Assembly: GCF_000759025.1 (NCBI RefSeq)
Contig: NZ_JPOS01000082.1
Coordinates: 62,001 to 126,000, forward strand
Direction: 5' to 3'
Origin: Phaeodactylibacter xiamenensis
GTDB taxonomy: Bacteria > Bacteroidota > Bacteroidia > Chitinophagales > Saprospiraceae
Length of the DNA: 64,000 nucleotides
The notes beneath the pieces are model-generated. The model was not told where the DNA came from. It ran no database searches and saw only the letters and a program-made list of their open reading frames with translations. Positions 10,086 to 46,829 of this stretch are shown here, in pieces (the stretch's first letter is position 1; each line of letters begins with the position of its first letter). The translations under genes were made by a program, and so were the position numbers.

Positions 10086-10151
10086 ATGAATTCTTTTACA
10101 AGCAATAACTGGTGGTGGTGGCACAATCGTTCGGGAGACCGGGTGAAGTGA
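10086..10151 (+). CDS. trpL: Tryptophan operon leader peptide with four tandem Trp codons
   Basis: A 21-codon frame, ATG 10086 to TGA 10149-10151, encodes MNSFTSNN, then four consecutive Trp codons (TGG at 10110-10121, residues 9-12), then HNRSGDRVK. It begins about 12 bases after the predicted transcription start and lies directly before an attenuator and trpE. A ribosome short of charged Trp-tRNA would stall at residues 9-12 and cover the 5' arm of the hairpin at 10094-10104. The gene name follows the role in other bacteria; there is no sequence homology to E. coli trpL. Confidence 0.85.
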   Translation: MNSFTSNNWWWWHNRSGDRVK

Positions 10152-10230
10152 CACGGCTATGCTTGTAAAACTCAATCAAGATAAAAAGCGGCTTGTCGAT
10201 TCACTCGGCAAGCCGCTTTTCTGTTTCACC
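10094..10230 (+). promoter_or_regulatory. Transcription attenuator of the trp operon
   Basis: Segment 1, TTTTACAAGCA at 10094-10104, lies inside the leader peptide just before the Trp codons and pairs perfectly over 11 bp with segment 2, TGCTTGTAAAA at 10160-10170. Segments 3 and 4 form the terminator at 10184-10220. A possible alternative pairing is GCTTG (10161-10165) with CAAGC (10209-10213) plus GGTGAA (10142-10147) with TTCACC (10225-10230), which would break the terminator when segment 2 is free. The leader stop codon at 10149-10151 places a finishing ribosome over segment 2, so readthrough needs stalling at Trp. The alternative pairing is weak and was not folded by program. Confidence 0.75.
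10184..10226 (+). terminator. Attenuator terminator before trpE
   Basis: AAAAGCGGCTTG (10184-10195) pairs perfectly with CAAGCCGCTTTT (10209-10220); TCG/CGG inside extends the stem to 15 bp with loop ATTCACT. The RNA then continues with TTTTCTGTTT, a usable U-rich tail. trpE starts 22 bases later. Confidence 0.85.
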
Positions 10231-39391: not shown

Positions 39392-41443
39392 ATGGCAAAA
39401 ACGGAATTGGTAAAACGCGATATCAGCTGGCTTTCTTTTAATCACCGGGTACTTCAGGAAGCGATGGACAAATCGGTGCCCCTTTACGAACGCATCAAGT
39501 TTTTGGCCATTTACAGCTCCAATCTCGATGAATTTTACCGGGTGCGGGTAGCTTCTCTGCGTAGTTTCAAAGAACTGAAGAAGAAAACCCGGAAGGCTCT
39601 CGACCTGGAGACTAAGCCCAAAAAAGAGCTTAAACAGATCCGCAGGATTGTACAGGAGCAGCAAGAGGTCTTTGGCCGCATCTTCCGTACGGATATCATC
39701 CCGGAGTTGGAAAAAGCAGGTGTGCGCCTGATCAACAACGAAGCCTTCACAGGACCGCAGCAGGAATTTGCCAAACGCTATTTTTTTGAGAAAGTCTACC
39801 CCTGCCTGAACCCCATCATTTTAGAGCCGGAATCCGCATGGCCTTTCCTTGAAAACAAGGGGCTTTACTTTGTGATTGATCTGGAAGGGGAAGGCCGTAC
39901 CGCTATCCTCCAAATGCCTACAGATAATTTGCCCAGGTTTCAGGAGTTGCCCTCAGAAGATGCAGGGATTTACTACCTAACTTTTCTGGACGATATCATT
40001 CGCTATAACCTTCCGGCTTTTCTCGATGAGCCTGTCCTGGGCGCCTACGCCATCAAAGTATCACGGGATGCTGAGCTCTACATCGATGATGAATACTCCG
40101 GCGACCTGGTTGAGAAGATTCGCGAAAGCCTCGATGAGCGAAATATCGGTCTGCCCACACGGTTTCTCTACGACAGCCGCATGCCGGAAGAACTCCTGGG
40201 GCTGCTCAAAGAGCAACTGAAATTAAGCAAGCATGACCTCATCCCCGGCGCCCGCTATCACAATTTCAACGACTTTTTTGGTTTTCCCAATCCAACGGAT
40301 CAGAGCGAGCTGCACGATGAGCCCATGGAGCCCCTGCTGCATGAGGGGCTGGAGCAGGCAGAAGCCCTGTTGCCTTATCTCCGGGAGCAGGACGCTGTGC
40401 TGCACTTTCCCTATCAGAAATACGACTACATCCCAAGGCTGATCCGCGAAGCAGCGCAGGACCCGGATGTGACCACCCTCAAGATTACCCTTTACCGGGT
40501 TGCTTCCCGCTCCGCAGTAGTGGATGGATTGCTGGAAGCCCTCAAAAATGGAAAACAGGTCACCGCTTTTATTGAAGCTAAAGCCCGGTTTGACGAAGCG
40601 GCTAATCTGTACTGGGGCACTGAGCTGGAAAAAGCTGGCGCTACGGTGATTTACAGCTACCCTGGTATCAAAGTGCATACCAAGCTATTGCTGATTATTC
40701 GGCAGGAAGAAGAGGATTTGCGGCATTATGCCTATCTGGGCACCGGCAATTTTAATGAAAAAACGGCCCGGCTGTACTGCGATCACGCCTTGCTTACTGC
40801 TGATCCCCGCCTGGCTAAAGAAGTCGGGCAGGTCTTCGATTTGCTGGAGCGGAAGATCCTTATGCCAAAGTGCAAACATCTGTTGGTTTCTCCGTTCACC
40901 ACGAGGAGCGGTTTTGAGGCTTTGCTCAAGCAGGAGATCAGGCATGCCAAAGGAGGGCGAAAAGCCTACGCCATGCTCAAAATGAACAGCCTGGAAGACC
41001 CCGAAATGATTGAGAAAATCTACGAAGCTTGTAGGGCTGGCGTAAAGGTACAGTTGATTATCCGTGGTATCTGCTGTGCGGTACCTGATTTGGAAGGCGT
41101 GGGCGAAAACCTGGAAATCATCAGCATCGTAGACCGGTTTTTGGAACACGCCCGGGTTTATATTTTTGGAAATGGAGGGGAGGAGCGCCTGTTTCTCGCC
41201 TCAGCTGACTGGATGACCCGCAACCTGGACCGCCGGGTGGAGGTGGTTTTCCCGGTTTATGATAAAAGAATCCGGGAGGAGATCCGGCACATCATCAACC
41301 TGCAACTTGCTGATAATACCAAGGCGCGCATCATTAATGCAGAACAAAATAACCCTTACCATTATCAGGGGGGCACGCCGGTAAGGGCTCAGGTCGCCAC
41401 CTATCAATGGCTGGCCAAGCGGGAGCCCGTAGGTTTACAATAA
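39392..41443 (+). CDS. ppk1: Polyphosphate kinase 1
   Basis: A 683-residue enzyme that reversibly makes polyphosphate from ATP. The N-terminal and head domains show KRDISWLSFNHRVLQEA and FLAIYSSNLDEFYRVRVASL; the catalytic half shows FIEAKARFDEAANLYWGTELEKAGATVIYSYPGIKVHTKLLLI with the autophosphorylated His, AYLGTGNFNEKTARLYCDHALLTADP, and LIIRGICCAVPDLEG. Full-length for the family. Followed by the betaine-lipid genes on the same strand with a gap of 68 bases, so phosphate supply may link them. Confidence 0.95.
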   Translation: MAKTELVKRDISWLSFNHRVLQEAMDKSVPLYERIKFLAIYSSNLDEFYRVRVASLRSFKELKKKTRKALDLETKPKKELKQIRRIVQEQQEVFGRIFRTDIIPELEKAGVRLINNEAFTGPQQEFAKRYFFEKVYPCLNPIILEPESAWPFLENKGLYFVIDLEGEGRTAILQMPTDNLPRFQELPSEDAGIYYLTFLDDIIRYNLPAFLDEPVLGAYAIKVSRDAELYIDDEYSGDLVEKIRESLDERNIGLPTRFLYDSRMPEELLGLLKEQLKLSKHDLIPGARYHNFNDFFGFPNPTDQSELHDEPMEPLLHEGLEQAEALLPYLREQDAVLHFPYQKYDYIPRLIREAAQDPDVTTLKITLYRVASRSAVVDGLLEALKNGKQVTAFIEAKARFDEAANLYWGTELEKAGATVIYSYPGIKVHTKLLLIIRQEEEDLRHYAYLGTGNFNEKTARLYCDHALLTADPRLAKEVGQVFDLLERKILMPKCKHLLVSPFTTRSGFEALLKQEIRHAKGGRKAYAMLKMNSLEDPEMIEKIYEACRAGVKVQLIIRGICCAVPDLEGVGENLEIISIVDRFLEHARVYIFGNGGEERLFLASADWMTRNLDRRVEVVFPVYDKRIREEIRHIINLQLADNTKARIINAEQNNPYHYQGGTPVRAQVATYQWLAKREPVGLQ

Positions 41444-41511
41444 GTTAGCACAAAGATAATTCAGGGCTAACGCTATTCGGGTTGACGCGTACTATTTTCA
41501 CCATAAAAAAA

Positions 41512-42669
41512 GTGACGAAGATCAACCACCTGCGGGATTGGGTATTCCACCGCGTACACAAGAGCAACCTCGTTTACAATACCTGCTGGGAAGACCCCCG
41601 CTGCGACCGCGAACTCATGGCTATTGATGCGGACAGCGAAATTGTGATGATCACAAGTGCCGGTTGCAATGCGCTGGATTACCTGCTGGATGCGCCCAAA
41701 GCGGTGCACTGCATTGACATGAACCCCCGGCAGAACGCCCTGCTTGAACTCAAACGTGCCTTTTTCAGCCACAGCGGCCCTCAAACGTTGTTTCAAGTGT
41801 TTGGCAGGGGCAGCCACGAGGCTTTCCCCGACCTCTACCACCGGCAGCTCCGTTCTGCACTGCCTGCCTATGCACAGGAGTACTGGGATGAGCACCTGAA
41901 TTACTTTTCACCTAAAGGCCTACGGAAATCCTTTTATCATTTTGGCTCCTCGGGCACTTTCGCCTGGCTGGCCGGCAATTACCTAAAGGGGCGCAGGAAA
42001 CTGTTCCGTCAGATCGATCAAATGTTTCACGCCGCTACGCTGGAAGAGCAGAAGGAAATCTACCTGCAGGTAGAAGAGCGTGTCCTGAATAATATGGTAG
42101 AGTGGATGGTCAACCGCCACCTCACCATGTGCCTGGTAGGGGTGCCCCGGTCGCAGCAGGAGCTTTTTGTGAAAAAATATGAGCGGGGCGCTTTGGGCTT
42201 CATTCAGGAGTGCCTGCGCAAAGTCTTCACGGAGTTGCCTTTGCAGGACAACTACTTCTACCGGTTATACATGTACGGCACCTACACAGAGACCTGCGCG
42301 CCCAATTACCTGTTGCCGGAGCACTTTGAGCCCCTTCGTGACCGAATAGACCGGGTGCAGACCAACACCACCACAATCAGTCAGTTCCTGAAGGACAATC
42401 CTGGTGCCTATACCCACTACGTACTCCTTGACCATCAAGACTGGCTGGCTGCCAATGACCGGCCGGCGCTGGAAGAAGAGTGGCGACTGATTCTGGAGAA
42501 CAGCCGGCCCGGCACCAAAATACTGCTGCGCTCAGCGGCTCATGAAGTGGACTTCTTTCCTGATTTTGTGCAGAAAGCGGTTGTTTTCGAGCAGGATTTA
42601 ACGGCTAAAACCCATCAACTTGATCGGGTGGGAACCTATGCAAGTGTCTATCTGGCCGAAGTACAGTAG
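41512..42669 (+). CDS. btaA: BtaA-like SAM:diacylglycerol 3-amino-3-carboxypropyl transferase
   Basis: A DUF3419/BtaA protein of 385 residues. BtaA moves the aminocarboxypropyl group of SAM to diacylglycerol, giving diacylglyceryl homoserine. Signature stretches: VHKSNLVYNTCWEDPRCDRELM, VMITSAGCNALDYLLDAPKAVHCIDMNPRQNALLELK, LYMYGTYTETCAPNYL and HYVLLDHQDWLA. No ATG is available; GTG at 41512 gives the family-like N-terminus MTKINHLRDW, while TTG at 41482 would add ten residues. The methyltransferase that follows completes the pathway. Confidence 0.88.
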   Translation: MTKINHLRDWVFHRVHKSNLVYNTCWEDPRCDRELMAIDADSEIVMITSAGCNALDYLLDAPKAVHCIDMNPRQNALLELKRAFFSHSGPQTLFQVFGRGSHEAFPDLYHRQLRSALPAYAQEYWDEHLNYFSPKGLRKSFYHFGSSGTFAWLAGNYLKGRRKLFRQIDQMFHAATLEEQKEIYLQVEERVLNNMVEWMVNRHLTMCLVGVPRSQQELFVKKYERGALGFIQECLRKVFTELPLQDNYFYRLYMYGTYTETCAPNYLLPEHFEPLRDRIDRVQTNTTTISQFLKDNPGAYTHYVLLDHQDWLAANDRPALEEEWRLILENSRPGTKILLRSAAHEVDFFPDFVQKAVVFEQDLTAKTHQLDRVGTYASVYLAEVQ

Positions 42670-42695
42670 CAACTTACCTAATCTAAAAACCTAAT

Positions 42696-43343
42696 ATGGC
42701 ATCCAAGCACATCACAGCCTCCGTTACAGAACAGAACGAAACCATGCAGCGCTATTACGTGCTGCAATCCAAAATCTACGACCTCACCCGCTGGACCTTC
42801 CTGTTTGGGCGTCGGGCAGTCATCCGGCAGTTGCCCCTTGATCCCGGAAAAGCGCACCGTATCCTGGAAGTGGGCTGCGGCACCGGCTACAACCTTCGGC
42901 TGCTGGCCCGCCGTTTTCCCAAAGCTCACCTGACCGGGCTGGACGTATCCACTCACATGATTGAGAAAGCCACAAAAGCCACTAAGCCGTTTGCGCAGCG
43001 GGTCCAACTGGAGGAGCGCCCCTATGCACTGGGCGACACTCAATACCTGGAGCAATTCGACGCCGTCCTGTTTTCCTATTCCCTAACCATGATTAACCCG
43101 CAATGGGAAGAGCTGATCCGGCAGGCAAAGGCGGATCTTAAACCTGGGGGTATCATAGCGGTGGCGGACTTTTTTGATTCCCGGTTTAGGTGGTTCAAAA
43201 CCCACATGGGTAACAATCATGTCCGGATGGATGGGCACCTGTTACCGCTTTTGGAGCAGGAATTCACGACACTTTCCCATAGTGTGAAGCCAGCCTACGG
43301 CGGCGTATGGGACTACTTCGTACATTTGGGCAGAAAGGTGTGA
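42696..43343 (+). CDS. btaB: BtaB-like SAM methyltransferase
   Basis: A 215-residue class I methyltransferase directly after btaA. Motif I is ILEVGCGTGYNLRLLARRFPKAHLTGLDVS; the start QNETMQRYYVLQSKIYDLTRWTFLFGR and the later FSYSLTMINPQWEELIRQAKADLKPGGIIAVADFF and HVRMDGHLLPLLEQEF match BtaB-type enzymes, which methylate diacylglyceryl homoserine three times to the betaine lipid DGTS. Assignment rests on motif plus gene pairing. Confidence 0.82.
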   Translation: MASKHITASVTEQNETMQRYYVLQSKIYDLTRWTFLFGRRAVIRQLPLDPGKAHRILEVGCGTGYNLRLLARRFPKAHLTGLDVSTHMIEKATKATKPFAQRVQLEERPYALGDTQYLEQFDAVLFSYSLTMINPQWEELIRQAKADLKPGGIIAVADFFDSRFRWFKTHMGNNHVRMDGHLLPLLEQEFTTLSHSVKPAYGGVWDYFVHLGRKV

Positions 43344-43410
43344 GTTTGTATCCTGCTTTTGTAAAATTGCCGATTTTTGTTTGGTATTGGAGTAGAAAAA
43401 GTTGGTGAAT

Positions 43411-43452
43411 ATGCTAATTTGGTGGGCATTACTGCAACCAAATTCAAATTAG
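43411..43452 (+). CDS. Leader peptide with tandem Trp codons before trpB2
   Basis: A 13-codon frame, ATG 43411 to TAG 43450-43452, encodes [13 protein letters not shown] with Trp at residues 4 and 5 (TGG-TGG at 43420-43425). Its stop lies one base before the trpB2 ATG at 43454. Two adjacent Trp codons in thirteen, directly before a tryptophan synthase gene, are unlikely by chance. A weak promoter candidate upstream is TTTG at 43345-43348 with GATTTTTG at 43372-43379, 23 bases apart. Confidence 0.7.
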
Positions 43453-43455
43453 CAT
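43411..43455 (+). promoter_or_regulatory. Start-codon hairpin and alternative hairpin in the trpB2 leader
   Basis: ATGCTAATTTG (43411-43421) pairs perfectly with CAAATTAGCAT (43445-43455); the second arm includes the first two bases of the trpB2 start codon. A competing stem pairs AATTTGGT (43417-43424) with ACCAAATT (43437-43444) and leaves the start free. A ribosome held at the Trp codons would cover the 5' arm of the first stem. No U-tract follows, so control of translation rather than termination is expected. Confidence 0.7.
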
Positions 43456-44818
43456 GAACACACGAAAAATCTTATTGTCGGAAAATGAGATTCCGGAAGC
43501 CTGGTACAATATTGTGCACGATATGCCCAACAAGCCGCTGCCTCCGCTGCACCCCGGCACTAAGGAGCCCATCGGCCCGGATGCCCTTGCACCTCTTTTT
43601 CCAATGGGCCTTATCCAACAAGAAGTAACCCAGGAAAAATGGGTGGAAATACCGGAAGAAGTCCGCGAGGTTTATAAAATCTGGCGTCCTACGCCTATGT
43701 TCCGGGCCATAGGGTTGGAAAAAGCCCTGGATACGCCAGCCAAAATTTACTACAAATACGAAGGTGTGAGCCCTTCCGGTTCTCACAAGCCCAATACAGC
43801 GGTTGCGCAGGCATACTACAACAAACAGGAAGGCGTTAAGCGCATCACGACTGAAACCGGTGCCGGTCAGTGGGGCAGTGCGCTGAGTTTTGCCTGTCAG
43901 CACTTCGGCATAGAATGCGAGGTGTACATGGTGAAGATCAGCTATAAGCAGAAGCCCTACCGCAAGATGATGATGAACACCTGGGGCGCCAACGTCCACC
44001 CTTCGCCCACTGACCTGACCGAAGCGGGGCGTCAGGTGCTGGCCAAAAACCCTGACTCACCAGGGAGTCTGGGTATTGCTATCTCGGAAGCCGTGGAACG
44101 GGCCGCCTCCGACGAGCATACGAAATACGCCCTGGGCAGCGTCCTCAATCACGTCCTCATGCATCAAACGGTCATTGGGCTGGAAGCCGTCAAGCAGATG
44201 GAGAAAGCCGGTGATCAGCCGGATATTGTGGTGGCGCCCTTTGGTGGAGGCTCCAACTTTGCCGGCATCAGCTTCCCTTTCCTGCGGCTTAATCTGGAAG
44301 AAGGCCAAAATATCCGGTGCATTGCCAGCGAGCCCTCCTCCTGCCCAAAGCTTACCCGCGGTGTGTTCCGTTATGACTTCGGCGATATGGTCGGAATGAC
44401 ACCGCTGCTGCCGATGTATACCCTTGGGCACAACTTCGTCCCGGCACCGATTCATGCCGGAGGGCTGCGCTACCATGGTGCGGGCGTTGTAGTGAGTCAG
44501 CTGCTAAGGGATCAACTCATTGAAGCCCGCGCACACGATCAGTTGGAGTGCTTCGAAGCAGGCGTGCTTTTCGCCAAAACAGAAGGCATCATTCCTGCAC
44601 CTGAGACCAACCACGCTATTGCCACCGCCATTCAGGAAGCCAAGCGCTGCAAAGAGGAAGGCAAGAGCGAGACTATATTGATTCACCTCTGCGGGCACGG
44701 CAACTTTGACTTGGCTGCTTACGAAAATTACCTGAGCGGCAATCTGGTCAGGCACGAAATCACCGAAGAGGAGATACAGGCAGCACTGGCAGAGCTGGAT
44801 ACGCCGACGATTGATTAA
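43454..44818 (+). CDS. trpB2: TrpB2-type tryptophan synthase beta-like enzyme
   Basis: A 454-residue PLP enzyme of the TrpB2 group, longer than TrpB1 by an N-terminal extension. The PLP lysine is Lys112 in [35 protein letters not shown] and the phosphate loop FGGGSNFAG are present, and [15 protein letters not shown] is typical of TrpB2. Some TrpB2 enzymes make Trp from indole without TrpA, others deaminate serine or act on O-phosphoserine. A normal trpB lies at 14786, so this is a second copy; its Trp-codon leader argues for a role tied to tryptophan. Followed by a terminator. Confidence 0.9.
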
Positions 44819-44843: not shown

Positions 44844-44893
44844 AGCGGCACTGGTGATCCTTTTGGCATTACCGGTGCCGCTTTATTTTATTT
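44844..44893 (+). terminator. Rho-independent terminator of trpB2
   Basis: AGCGGCACTGGTGAT (44844-44858) and ATTACCGGTGCCGCT (44868-44882) form a 15-bp stem with two G-U pairs, followed by TTATTTTATTT. Confidence 0.85.
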
Positions 44894-45177
44894 GGATTTC
44901 GTAATACGCTCCTTGGGCTGCCTTGGGAAAGGTGGGCGAAAGCGTGGTGAGTCAGATTGGATTTTGGTAGGTTTAACAATCAGTAAATCAGTAATTTAGA
45001 CACCTTGTTTGGGTTTGATGGCTGACCGTTGTAAAGCAGTAAGAAGTTGGCTTTACTACTGTAAAATGCCCGCTAAAAGGCGGCGGGGATAACAGCGCCG
45101 GGTGTTGAAATTCCGTTATTTCGTTTCCCCTGCATCATGCAGTACATTTCAGAAAGCTTAAAAAACAACAAAATAAC
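44894..45177. other. Spacer before ilvC
   Basis: This 284-base stretch holds a 7-bp hairpin GTAAAGC/GCTTTAC near 45035-45060 and a GC-rich segment near 45070-45105. I looked for a leader peptide rich in Leu, Ile or Val codons and found none. A candidate promoter could not be set. Confidence 0.4.
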
Positions 45178-46239
45178 ATGGCAAAGCTAAATTTTGGTGG
45201 CGTAGAGGAAAACGTAGTCACCCGTGAGGAATTCCCGCTGGAAAAGGCGCGGGAAATTATGAAAGACGAAACCATTGCCGTTATCGGCTACGGGGTACAG
45301 GGCCCGGGGCAGGCACTTAACCTCAAGGACAACGGTTTTAATGTGATTGTCGGTCAGCGTCAGAATTCCAAGACCTGGGACAAGGCCGTGGATGATGGCT
45401 GGGAGCCGGGTGTTACACTTTTTCCGATTGAGGAAGCCGTAGAGCGCGGTACGGTCATTCAATACCTGCTGAGCGATGCTGCACAGATCTCCGTATGGCC
45501 TAAGATTAAACCGCTGTTGACGAAAGGCAAAGCGTTGTATTTTTCTCATGGCTTTGGCATTACCTACAAGGAGCGTACGGGAATTATCCCACCGGAGGAT
45601 GTGGATGTGATCCTGGTGGCACCCAAAGGTTCCGGTACAAGCCTTCGCCGCTTATTCGTAGCTGGCAAAGGGCTGAATTCCAGCTACGCTATTTTCCAGG
45701 ATGCGACCGGTCGGGCTAAGGATCGGGTGATTGCGCTGGGTATTGGCGTAGGTTCGGGTTACCTGTTCGAAACGACTTTCAAGCAAGAGGTGTACAGTGA
45801 CCTGACCGGTGAGCGGGGTTCTTTGATGGGCGCCATTCAGGGCTTGTTCGCTGCGCAGTACGATTGCCTGCGCCGTCATGGGCATAGCCCGTCCGAAGCT
45901 TTCAACGAAACTGTGGAGGAGTTGACACAGAGCCTGATGCCGCTCGTAGCGGAAAATGGTATGGACTGGATGTATGCGAATTGCTCGACTACGGCACAGC
46001 GGGGTGCGTTGGACTGGTGGAAGAAGTTCCGGGATGCGGTAGCGCCGGTCTTTGATGAATTATACGATAGCGTAGCAAAGGGCGAAGAGGCACAGCGGTC
46101 CATTGATTCCAATAGTCAGTCCGATTACCGGGAAAAACTGGATGCGGAACTCAAGGAGTTGCATGATAGTGAGATGTGGAGAGCGGGCCGTACGGTGCGG
46201 GGGCTTCGGCCGGAGAATCAGGGGGAGAAGGTTGGGTAG
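45178..46239 (+). CDS. ilvC: Ketol-acid reductoisomerase
   Basis: A 353-residue class I enzyme of valine, leucine and isoleucine synthesis, catalysing isomerisation and NADPH-dependent reduction of acetolactate. The Rossmann motif is VIGYGVQGPGQALNLKDNG with the cofactor loop GQRQNSKTW, followed by YFSHGFGITY, VDVILVAPKGSGTSLRRLF and the metal-binding KQEVYSDLTGERGSLMGAIQGLF and SEAFNETVEELTQSL. C-terminal RTVRGLRPE closes the domain. The stop lies at the edge of a minisatellite, so the gene end appears intact. ilvB/ilvN/ilvD are not in the window. Confidence 0.95.
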   Translation: MAKLNFGGVEENVVTREEFPLEKAREIMKDETIAVIGYGVQGPGQALNLKDNGFNVIVGQRQNSKTWDKAVDDGWEPGVTLFPIEEAVERGTVIQYLLSDAAQISVWPKIKPLLTKGKALYFSHGFGITYKERTGIIPPEDVDVILVAPKGSGTSLRRLFVAGKGLNSSYAIFQDATGRAKDRVIALGIGVGSGYLFETTFKQEVYSDLTGERGSLMGAIQGLFAAQYDCLRRHGHSPSEAFNETVEELTQSLMPLVAENGMDWMYANCSTTAQRGALDWWKKFRDAVAPVFDELYDSVAKGEEAQRSIDSNSQSDYREKLDAELKELHDSEMWRAGRTVRGLRPENQGEKVG

Positions 46240-46411
46240 TCTGGCAGTCTTGTAGTCGGCAGTCTGGCAGTGGGGAGTCTGGCAGTGGGGAGTCTGGCAG
46301 TGGGGAGTCTGGCAGTCGGCAGTCTGGCAGTCGGCAGTCTTGCAGTCGGCAGTCGGCAGTCGGCAGTCTTGCAGTCGGCAGTCTTGTAGTCTAGCAGTGG
46401 GCAGTCTTGTA
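46237..46411. repeat. Minisatellite of CAGTCTGG/CAGTCGG units
   Basis: About 175 bases made of 7- and 8-base units (CAGTCTGG, CAGTCTTG, CAGTCGG, CAGTGGGGAGT), including three tandem 15-base units AGTCTGGCAGTGGGG, and ending in a run of eight G. It starts exactly at the ilvC stop. Such arrays change length by slippage, so the copy number may vary between isolates. Confidence 0.9.
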
Positions 46412-46451
46412 GGGGGGGGATTTGTTTAACTTGTCTTAAAATGGATTTAGG

Positions 46452-46829
46452 ATGGAGAAGAGGTTTAATTTGAGGTATACGGAGCTGCTGGCTTACAAGA
46501 AGGCATTTGAGCTGGCGGTTGATATCTTTGAAGTTTCTAAGTCCTTTCCTAAGGAGGAGCGGTACTCGTTGACGGATCAGATCCGGCGGGCTTCGCGCTC
46601 GGTGTGTGCGAATATTGCGGAGGGGTACAGGAAGCGGCGTTATCCTAAGCATTTTATTAGCAAGTTATCTGATTCGGATGCGGAGAATGCGGAGGTGCAG
46701 GTTTGGACGCAATTTGCCTACCGGTTCGGTTATATTCCTGTGGGGCAGCATGATACGTGGTTGGAAAACTCCGTTGAGGTGGGCTCTTTGCTGGGGTATA
46801 TGATGGACAATCCGGATAAGTTCAAGTGA
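46452..46829 (+). CDS. Four-helix-bundle protein (23S rRNA IVS / Avd-like family)
   Basis: A 125-residue protein of the family first seen as a reading frame in 23S rRNA intervening sequences and related to the Avd protein of diversity-generating retroelements. Signature: LLAYKKAFELAVDIFEVSKSFPKEERYSLTDQIRRASRSVCANIAEGYRKR, then an acidic helix (SDSDAENAEVQVWTQFA). It is not in an rRNA gene here and no reverse transcriptase is near. It sits between ilvC and ilvA behind a minisatellite, a pattern suggesting insertion into an ilv operon. Function unknown. Confidence 0.88.
   Translation: MEKRFNLRYTELLAYKKAFELAVDIFEVSKSFPKEERYSLTDQIRRASRSVCANIAEGYRKRRYPKHFISKLSDSDAENAEVQVWTQFAYRFGYIPVGQHDTWLENSVEVGSLLGYMMDNPDKFK

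Follow-up and report, generated by a model that had tools for sequence, protein, structure and literature searches.

The window analysed here, a stretch of 64,000 nucleotides from Phaeodactylibacter xiamenensis, carries on its forward strand the gene trpB2 (43454-44818), which encodes a TrpB-like PLP enzyme of 454 amino acids. The product scores 643.3 bits against TIGR01415 (cut-off 518.85) and 734.8 bits against NF009057 (cut-off 366), both of which we take to be models of TrpB2. It contains the GSHK, TETGAGQ and GGGSN motifs, which have catalytic meaning, and its best solved relatives are the tryptophan synthase beta chain 1 and 2 entries 6hul, 4qys and 6hte. Most relatives align at the same ATG and a minority start a few codons away; a misplaced trpB2 start was rejected because of this agreement.

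Behind the gene lies a terminator-like hairpin with a T-rich tail (44844-44893, forward strand; the segment 44830-44895 folds at -31.7 kcal/mol, z -7.13), so that trpB2 is probably a one-gene unit whose transcript ends there. On the upstream side is a weak candidate -7 promoter box, GATTTTTG (43372-43379, forward strand), which is the same in the three genomes compared below and agrees with five of the six specified bases of TAnnTTTG, the -7 consensus given in the available text of two papers (PMC7366714; PMC9723704). A transcript from this box would begin at about 43385, upstream of the leader described below. Alignment did not show the box to be clearly conserved in P. luteus, and a sigma-70 promoter scan found none, as expected for Bacteroidota. 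Head to tail before trpB2, at 39392-43343, are polyphosphate kinase 1, a DUF3419 protein and a methyltransferase; the latter two resemble the BtaA/BtaB betaine-lipid genes, and the three are possibly a phosphate-limitation group. Further along, between ilvC and the next gene, a minus-strand frame (46218-46652) consists mostly of a repeated PTARL unit, and beside it is a small frame (46452-46829) that we take to resemble a four-helix-bundle protein.

Leader frame and start-codon hairpin

Directly before trpB2, and on the same strand, is a frame of 13 codons plus TAG (43411-43452), identical in the genomes G000, G004 and G002, with two adjacent Trp codons (WW) at codons 4 and 5 (43420-43425). 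Its stop codon (43450-43452) is separated by one base from the trpB2 start at 43454, which gives the junction TAGCATG. The 11 bases covering leader codons 1-4 (43411-43421, ATGCTAATTTG) are the exact reverse complement of 43445-43455, a segment that includes the stop of the leader as well as the A and T of the trpB2 ATG, and the two arms are separated by 23 bases. In the predicted fold, these arms belong to an extended hairpin (43402-43465) in which the leader's own ATG also lies within the stem, so that a single hairpin buries both starts. Furthermore, 43416-43423 can form eight pairs with 43437-43444 in a competing stem that encloses an inner stem (43426-43428/43433-43435) and, when used, leaves 43445-43455 free. 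The first-pass annotation had described the 13-codon frame with its adjacent Trp codons ending one base before trpB2, the perfect 11-base complementarity across the ATG, the competing hairpin that frees the start and the absence of a terminator, and we can confirm each of these points, together with the coordinates of the leader, the arms and trpB2.

The terminator scan listed no terminator-like site between the leader and trpB2, and transcriptional attenuation at trpB2 was rejected because the one-base gap leaves no space for a terminator. The locus has the cognate-codon-rich leader before a pathway gene that is typical of trp-type attenuators, and lacks their terminator and antiterminator. 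A T-box or riboswitch was also rejected, since an Rfam search of the window gave no match at the gathering score to these or to any other family.

Predicted folding and modelled ribosome positions

The 56 bases from 43405 to 43460 fold at -17.2 kcal/mol (z -3.45) and the longer segment 43402-43474 at -21.0 kcal/mol (z -4.23), and in neither case was any of 200 shuffles as stable; a wider segment of 100 bases is less exceptional (z -2.17, with 4 of 200 shuffles as stable). In the free RNA the leader ATG and the trpB2 ATG are both paired, with unpaired probabilities of 0.00-0.20. The competing stem together with its inner stem is worth -9.7 kcal/mol against -10.3 kcal/mol for the bare 11-base stem, and in context the start-closing fold beats the competing fold (-22.5 against -19.5). 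When growing transcripts were folded, the start-closing stem was predicted to be absent up to 43450 and present at 43455.

A ribosome was modelled by masking the bases from -15 to +16 of the P site, which is an assumed footprint. Placed on codon 4 or 5, it leaves structure of only -0.3 kcal/mol near the trpB2 start, and the unpaired probability within the trpB2 ATG becomes 0.95 for the A and about 0.4 for the U and the G. If the P site is instead on codon 8, the ATG stays shut by the outer stem, and a modelled ribosome that has reached the end of the leader covers the trpB2 start itself. Placing the ribosome on the first codon of the leader has nearly the same opening effect on the trpB2 ATG as placing it on the Trp codons, and any specificity for Trp must therefore lie in where ribosomes wait and not in the fold. 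The locus resembles leader-peptide translational attenuators in three respects: a short upstream frame ends near the regulated start, that start is predicted to be hidden in a structure containing leader sequence, and a ribosome held at the sensing codons is predicted to free it.

The stretch before trpB2 has A at -3, -6, -12 and -13. According to the available text of a study of Flavobacterium johnsoniae, initiation in that organism is favoured by A at these positions and by weak folding around the start codon, and AUG is scarcer than expected in the vicinity of starts (PMC6847099); this scarcity makes the retained upstream AUG of the present leader unusual.

Chance controls

When the 110 intergenic bases before trpB2 were shuffled 20,000 times with dinucleotides preserved, a perfect arm of at least 11 bases on the ATG arose 8 times and a WW leader 129 times, and the two never occurred together (0 of 20,000). 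A second control covered 1,197,232 bases of the same genome with 765 gene-like frames and 1,113 candidate ATG starts; here there were three WW leaders, two perfect arms of at least 11 bases and one start with both, the trpB2 locus being included in each of these counts. In both tests the features had been picked after seeing the locus, and neither made use of the fact that trpB2 is a tryptophan gene. The combination of leader and start-codon arm is far beyond chance in the two controls. The other start codon with a long arm (L216, at 11278 of contig C35 in G000) belongs to an 837-base gene and lies in a 12-base perfect inverted repeat that begins ATGAAGTTTAAA, with no WW leader listed.

Conservation and spread

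The DNA of the leader and hairpin is present in three of the six genomes of the genus (G000, G004 and G002). Full-length trpB2 is found in four of the six, and the fourth, G005, shares its upstream sequence with the P. luteus record. In an alignment of the three genomes, none of the 52 columns of 43402-43453 is variable, compared with 12 of 58 in the neighbouring 43344-43401, and trpB2 itself varies at 157 of 455 third codon positions. At the neighbouring rate, the chance of zero change in 52 columns is approximately 6e-6. This figure bears on the view that the structure is a neutral accident, namely a recent inverted duplication near the start that was inherited by three sister genomes and has no function. 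That the element is young and restricted to one lineage would agree with such an origin, but the lack of change beside a variable neighbour argues against it, as does the expectation that a useless hairpin burying a start would be harmful, and we regard an accident of this kind as very improbable.

The two longest invariant runs in the 5,197 columns of the locus are 45139-45215, with 77 columns around the ilvC start, and, in second place, 43402-43474, whose 5' end coincides with that of the extended hairpin. By reading, no obvious leader peptide was seen in the ilvC start region (45139-45215). When 41 genes with at least 80 bases upstream were compared with G004, 52 identical bases before the start were found in two, trpB2 and trpE; compared with G002, such identity was found in 4 of 36 genes on contig C11, trpE among them, and in one of five on contig C55, which is trpB2. 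Because the ilvC run is longer and 4 of the 36 genes on C11 are equally identical, invariance by itself is no proof. As regards covariation between codons and pairing, the block is identical in the three genomes and offers zero variable columns.

It is also possible to see here a structural or DNA element in which the peptide plays no role, the hairpin setting a low or temperature-dependent level of translation, or the palindrome serving as a protein-binding site, with the Trp codons incidental. The conserved object coincides with the extended hairpin, and the 12-base perfect arm on the ATG of another control-set gene, which has no WW leader listed, also speaks for this view. However, WW leaders were rare in the shuffles and occurred at only two other of the 1,113 starts, which makes one at a Trp gene unlikely. 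Arms that stand 23 bases apart are unusual for a dimeric operator, so the 11-base arms seen here are atypical of one, and the palindrome core occurs only once in the genome. Overall, we consider a purely structural element quite unlikely. A mobile or repeated element was rejected: the core has that single occurrence, no plasmid match was found at E 0.01, and viral contigs gave no exact match.

In a count of upstream regions, 107 trpB2 loci gave 98 distinct ones after removal of seven duplicates and two with fewer than 120 bases upstream. To these, 24 further loci at class level added 21 new regions (22 were scanned, two at contig edges being left out, and one was a duplicate); the resulting 119 do not include L030, which is only a fragment of trpB2 at the edge of a contig. 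Three of the 119 regions have a WW leader that ends near the start. At least two Trp codons anywhere in a short frame occur in five, and the remaining two of these (L056 and L149) have long frames with separate Trp codons, which we judge to be chance. The first-pass annotation had named relatives that keep trpB2 without the Trp codons and the pairing as evidence that would tell against its proposal, and outside the close clade such relatives are the rule: 116 of the 119 regions, P. luteus included, have no WW leader, and, with pairing scanned in part of the regions, a search of 257 loci for the exact core of the hairpin gave none beyond the three genomes. P. luteus keeps the gene order DUF3419 - methyltransferase - trpB2 - ilvC - ilvA without the leader, from which it appears that the element was gained or lost in place. 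On the sequences compared, the element is lineage-specific.

The trp operon leader

A classical trp-operon leader, MNSFTSNNWWWWHNRSGDRVK (10086-10151, forward strand), with four consecutive Trp codons, precedes trpE (10248) in the same window, and a terminator-like hairpin lies between the two (10184-10226, forward strand; 10180-10230 has z -6.63). Matches to trpE came from 20 of 39 genomes, and the two fragments in G001 were left out of the scan of trpE loci for leader frames. A WW-containing short frame is present upstream in 18 of the 19 trpE loci scanned, its own included (17 of 18 relatives), one of them with a TTG start; yet even with so common a leader the window has no Rfam family match at the gathering score. 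Before trpS of the same genome there are only frames with one Trp codon near the start, and none with WW.

For Flavobacterium psychrophilum, the available text of a report infers that amino-acid operons are preceded by attenuators of the leader-peptide kind (PMC9723704). Together with this precedent, the WW leaders of trpE make the reading of Trp codons look like a native device of these bacteria, and the novelty at trpB2 looks to be its output.

Discussion

We think it rather likely that the leader and hairpin form a cis-acting translational attenuator that couples the translation of trpB2 to the charging of Trp-tRNA. In such an attenuator, a ribosome would load on the leader of the nascent RNA; loading would have to be co-transcriptional since the leader's own start becomes buried, and could be so because the predicted hairpin closes only at about 43455. 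When charged Trp-tRNA is short, the ribosome would stop on codon 4 or 5, with its P site 37 or 34 bases upstream of the P site for the trpB2 ATG, a spacing that, judging by footprint sizes, should leave room for a second initiating subunit. The stalled ribosome would cover the 5' arm and expose a nearly unstructured stretch with the A residues listed above, on which free 30S subunits could start trpB2 repeatedly. With Trp in good supply, the ribosome would reach the stop codon, cover the trpB2 start and depart, and the hairpin would close. The net effect would be more trpB2 product when Trp is short, and the trp operon of these cells would read this signal too, by its four-Trp leader and a transcription terminator. 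Induction by shortage is supported by analogy with Bacillus subtilis, where the available accounts state that complete translation of RtpLP, with three Trp codons, prevents the translation of RtpA (PMC2311275).

The proposal that a stall on the Trp codons opens the trpB2 start was made in the first-pass annotation, and it stands in part. The leader and start hairpin exist, are beyond chance and are identical in three genomes with diverged flanks; a modelled stall on codon 4 or 5 opens most of the trpB2 start; and a Trp-codon leader is present elsewhere in the window. On the other side, the feature is missing outside the close clade, and the direction of control (on at Trp starvation, or off via lost reinitiation) is one that we infer. 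Several further observations count against an attenuator: the genomes that carry the element are only three and closely related, its two Trp codons are fewer than the four of the trp-operon leader, the promoter box is weak, and the modelled stall leaves two bases of the ATG, U and G, only partly unpaired, with a fold that alone is not Trp-specific.

As for the sign of any control, the leader stop lies so close to the ATG, with a single base between them, that reinitiation is favoured, and the response would then be reversed. With obligate translational coupling of this kind, the hairpin would block direct initiation, trpB2 would be translated mainly by ribosomes that restart after the leader, and a Trp stall would lower trpB2 expression, or the effect would be a constant boost. 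The spacing in TAGCATG and the placing of both starts in one stem suit this view, and the available text of a genomic study proposes that a leader frame close to the start of a gene increases its expression through reinitiation and that a stall lowers it (PMC4833913). However, the same text gives a peak of 11-14 bp for the distance from leader to gene in Bacteroidetes, compared with 2 here by the same definition. Furthermore, adjacent Trp codons before a Trp gene would be a coincidence or a perverse signal under coupling, and the modelled stalled state leaves the trpB2 start mostly open. Reinitiation is the main rival of the attenuator and opposite to it in sign, and the present data fit both; we hold coupling to be unlikely.

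On the best reading, the attenuator proposed for trpB2 is closest mechanistically to rtpLP-rtpA of B. subtilis, for which Chen and Yanofsky (2003, 2004) are cited as the original papers, and to ermC. The anti-TRAP leader peptide system rtpLP-rtpA resembles trpB2, in the available text on it, in its short Trp-codon frame before the gene, its translational output, the stalling of ribosomes on uncharged tRNA-Trp and its target in Trp biosynthesis (PMC2311275; PMC11255114). However, rtpA, whose product is a regulator rather than an enzyme, has a T-box as a further control (PMC11255114), whereas the trpB2 start is closed by a hairpin made with leader codons, has its leader's stop one base away, and is expected to lack a Shine-Dalgarno sequence. 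In the antibiotic-induced attenuators of the ermC type, a leader ribosome stall likewise opens a hairpin that hides a downstream start, as the accessible part of the source describes (PMC2965389), but ermC responds to a ribosome-bound drug instead of a particular amino acid, and for trpB2 the signal would be Trp-tRNA at Trp codons.

Two other systems are similar in part. The classical trp attenuators, of the E. coli type and including the trpE leader of this window, also have a Trp-rich leader peptide before a Trp gene, but trpB2 has no terminator or antiterminator between leader and gene, and its hairpin covers the start codon. In the LEU element before leuA of Actinobacteria, a run of leucine codons in the leader pairs with the start region (the Shine-Dalgarno box) of a biosynthetic gene; unlike the trpB2 hairpin, it is thought to be bound by a protein, and the accessible text cites mutations of the leucine codons that had no effect on regulation (PMC1262725).

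The first-pass annotation stated that no leader-peptide control of trpB2 had been described. Among the literature matches listed, by their titles and the beginnings of their abstracts and mostly in non-subscription papers, we found no description of it, but the statement has to be softened: a paper of 2005, in the part available (PMC1262725), describes a candidate attenuator upstream of 'trpB2A' in Corynebacterium diphtheriae, with 'trpB2A' matched here by gene name alone. Translational attenuators and Trp-codon leaders are both already known, and their combination on trpB2 is a new variant. We see roughly even chances for the full picture, in which one cell has two sensors of Trp-tRNA that differ in output, the trp operon using four Trp codons and a terminator, and trpB2 two Trp codons and a double start-codon hairpin without a Shine-Dalgarno sequence; the second would have arisen in one branch of Phaeodactylibacter, would be the first amino-acid-specific translational attenuator on the gene of a biosynthetic enzyme in Bacteroidota, as far as the literature was searched, and would place TrpB2 in the response to Trp shortage.

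In summary, the role of a stand-alone TrpB2 beside a complete trp operon is unsettled: in the available text of one study, a serine-deaminase activity was predicted, the members tested showed it only poorly, and gene neighbourhoods gave no clue (PMC1854888). If the proposed attenuator is real, a Trp-codon switch on trpB2 would tell what the cell uses TrpB2 for. It would also be a case of translational attenuation specific to one amino acid in a phylum whose ribosomes begin translation without Shine-Dalgarno pairing, where structure at the start site is a natural control point and where initiation, as far as the available text of that work goes, depends on upstream A residues and low structure (PMC6847099). 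Furthermore, it would be an example of such a switch arising in place between sister species.
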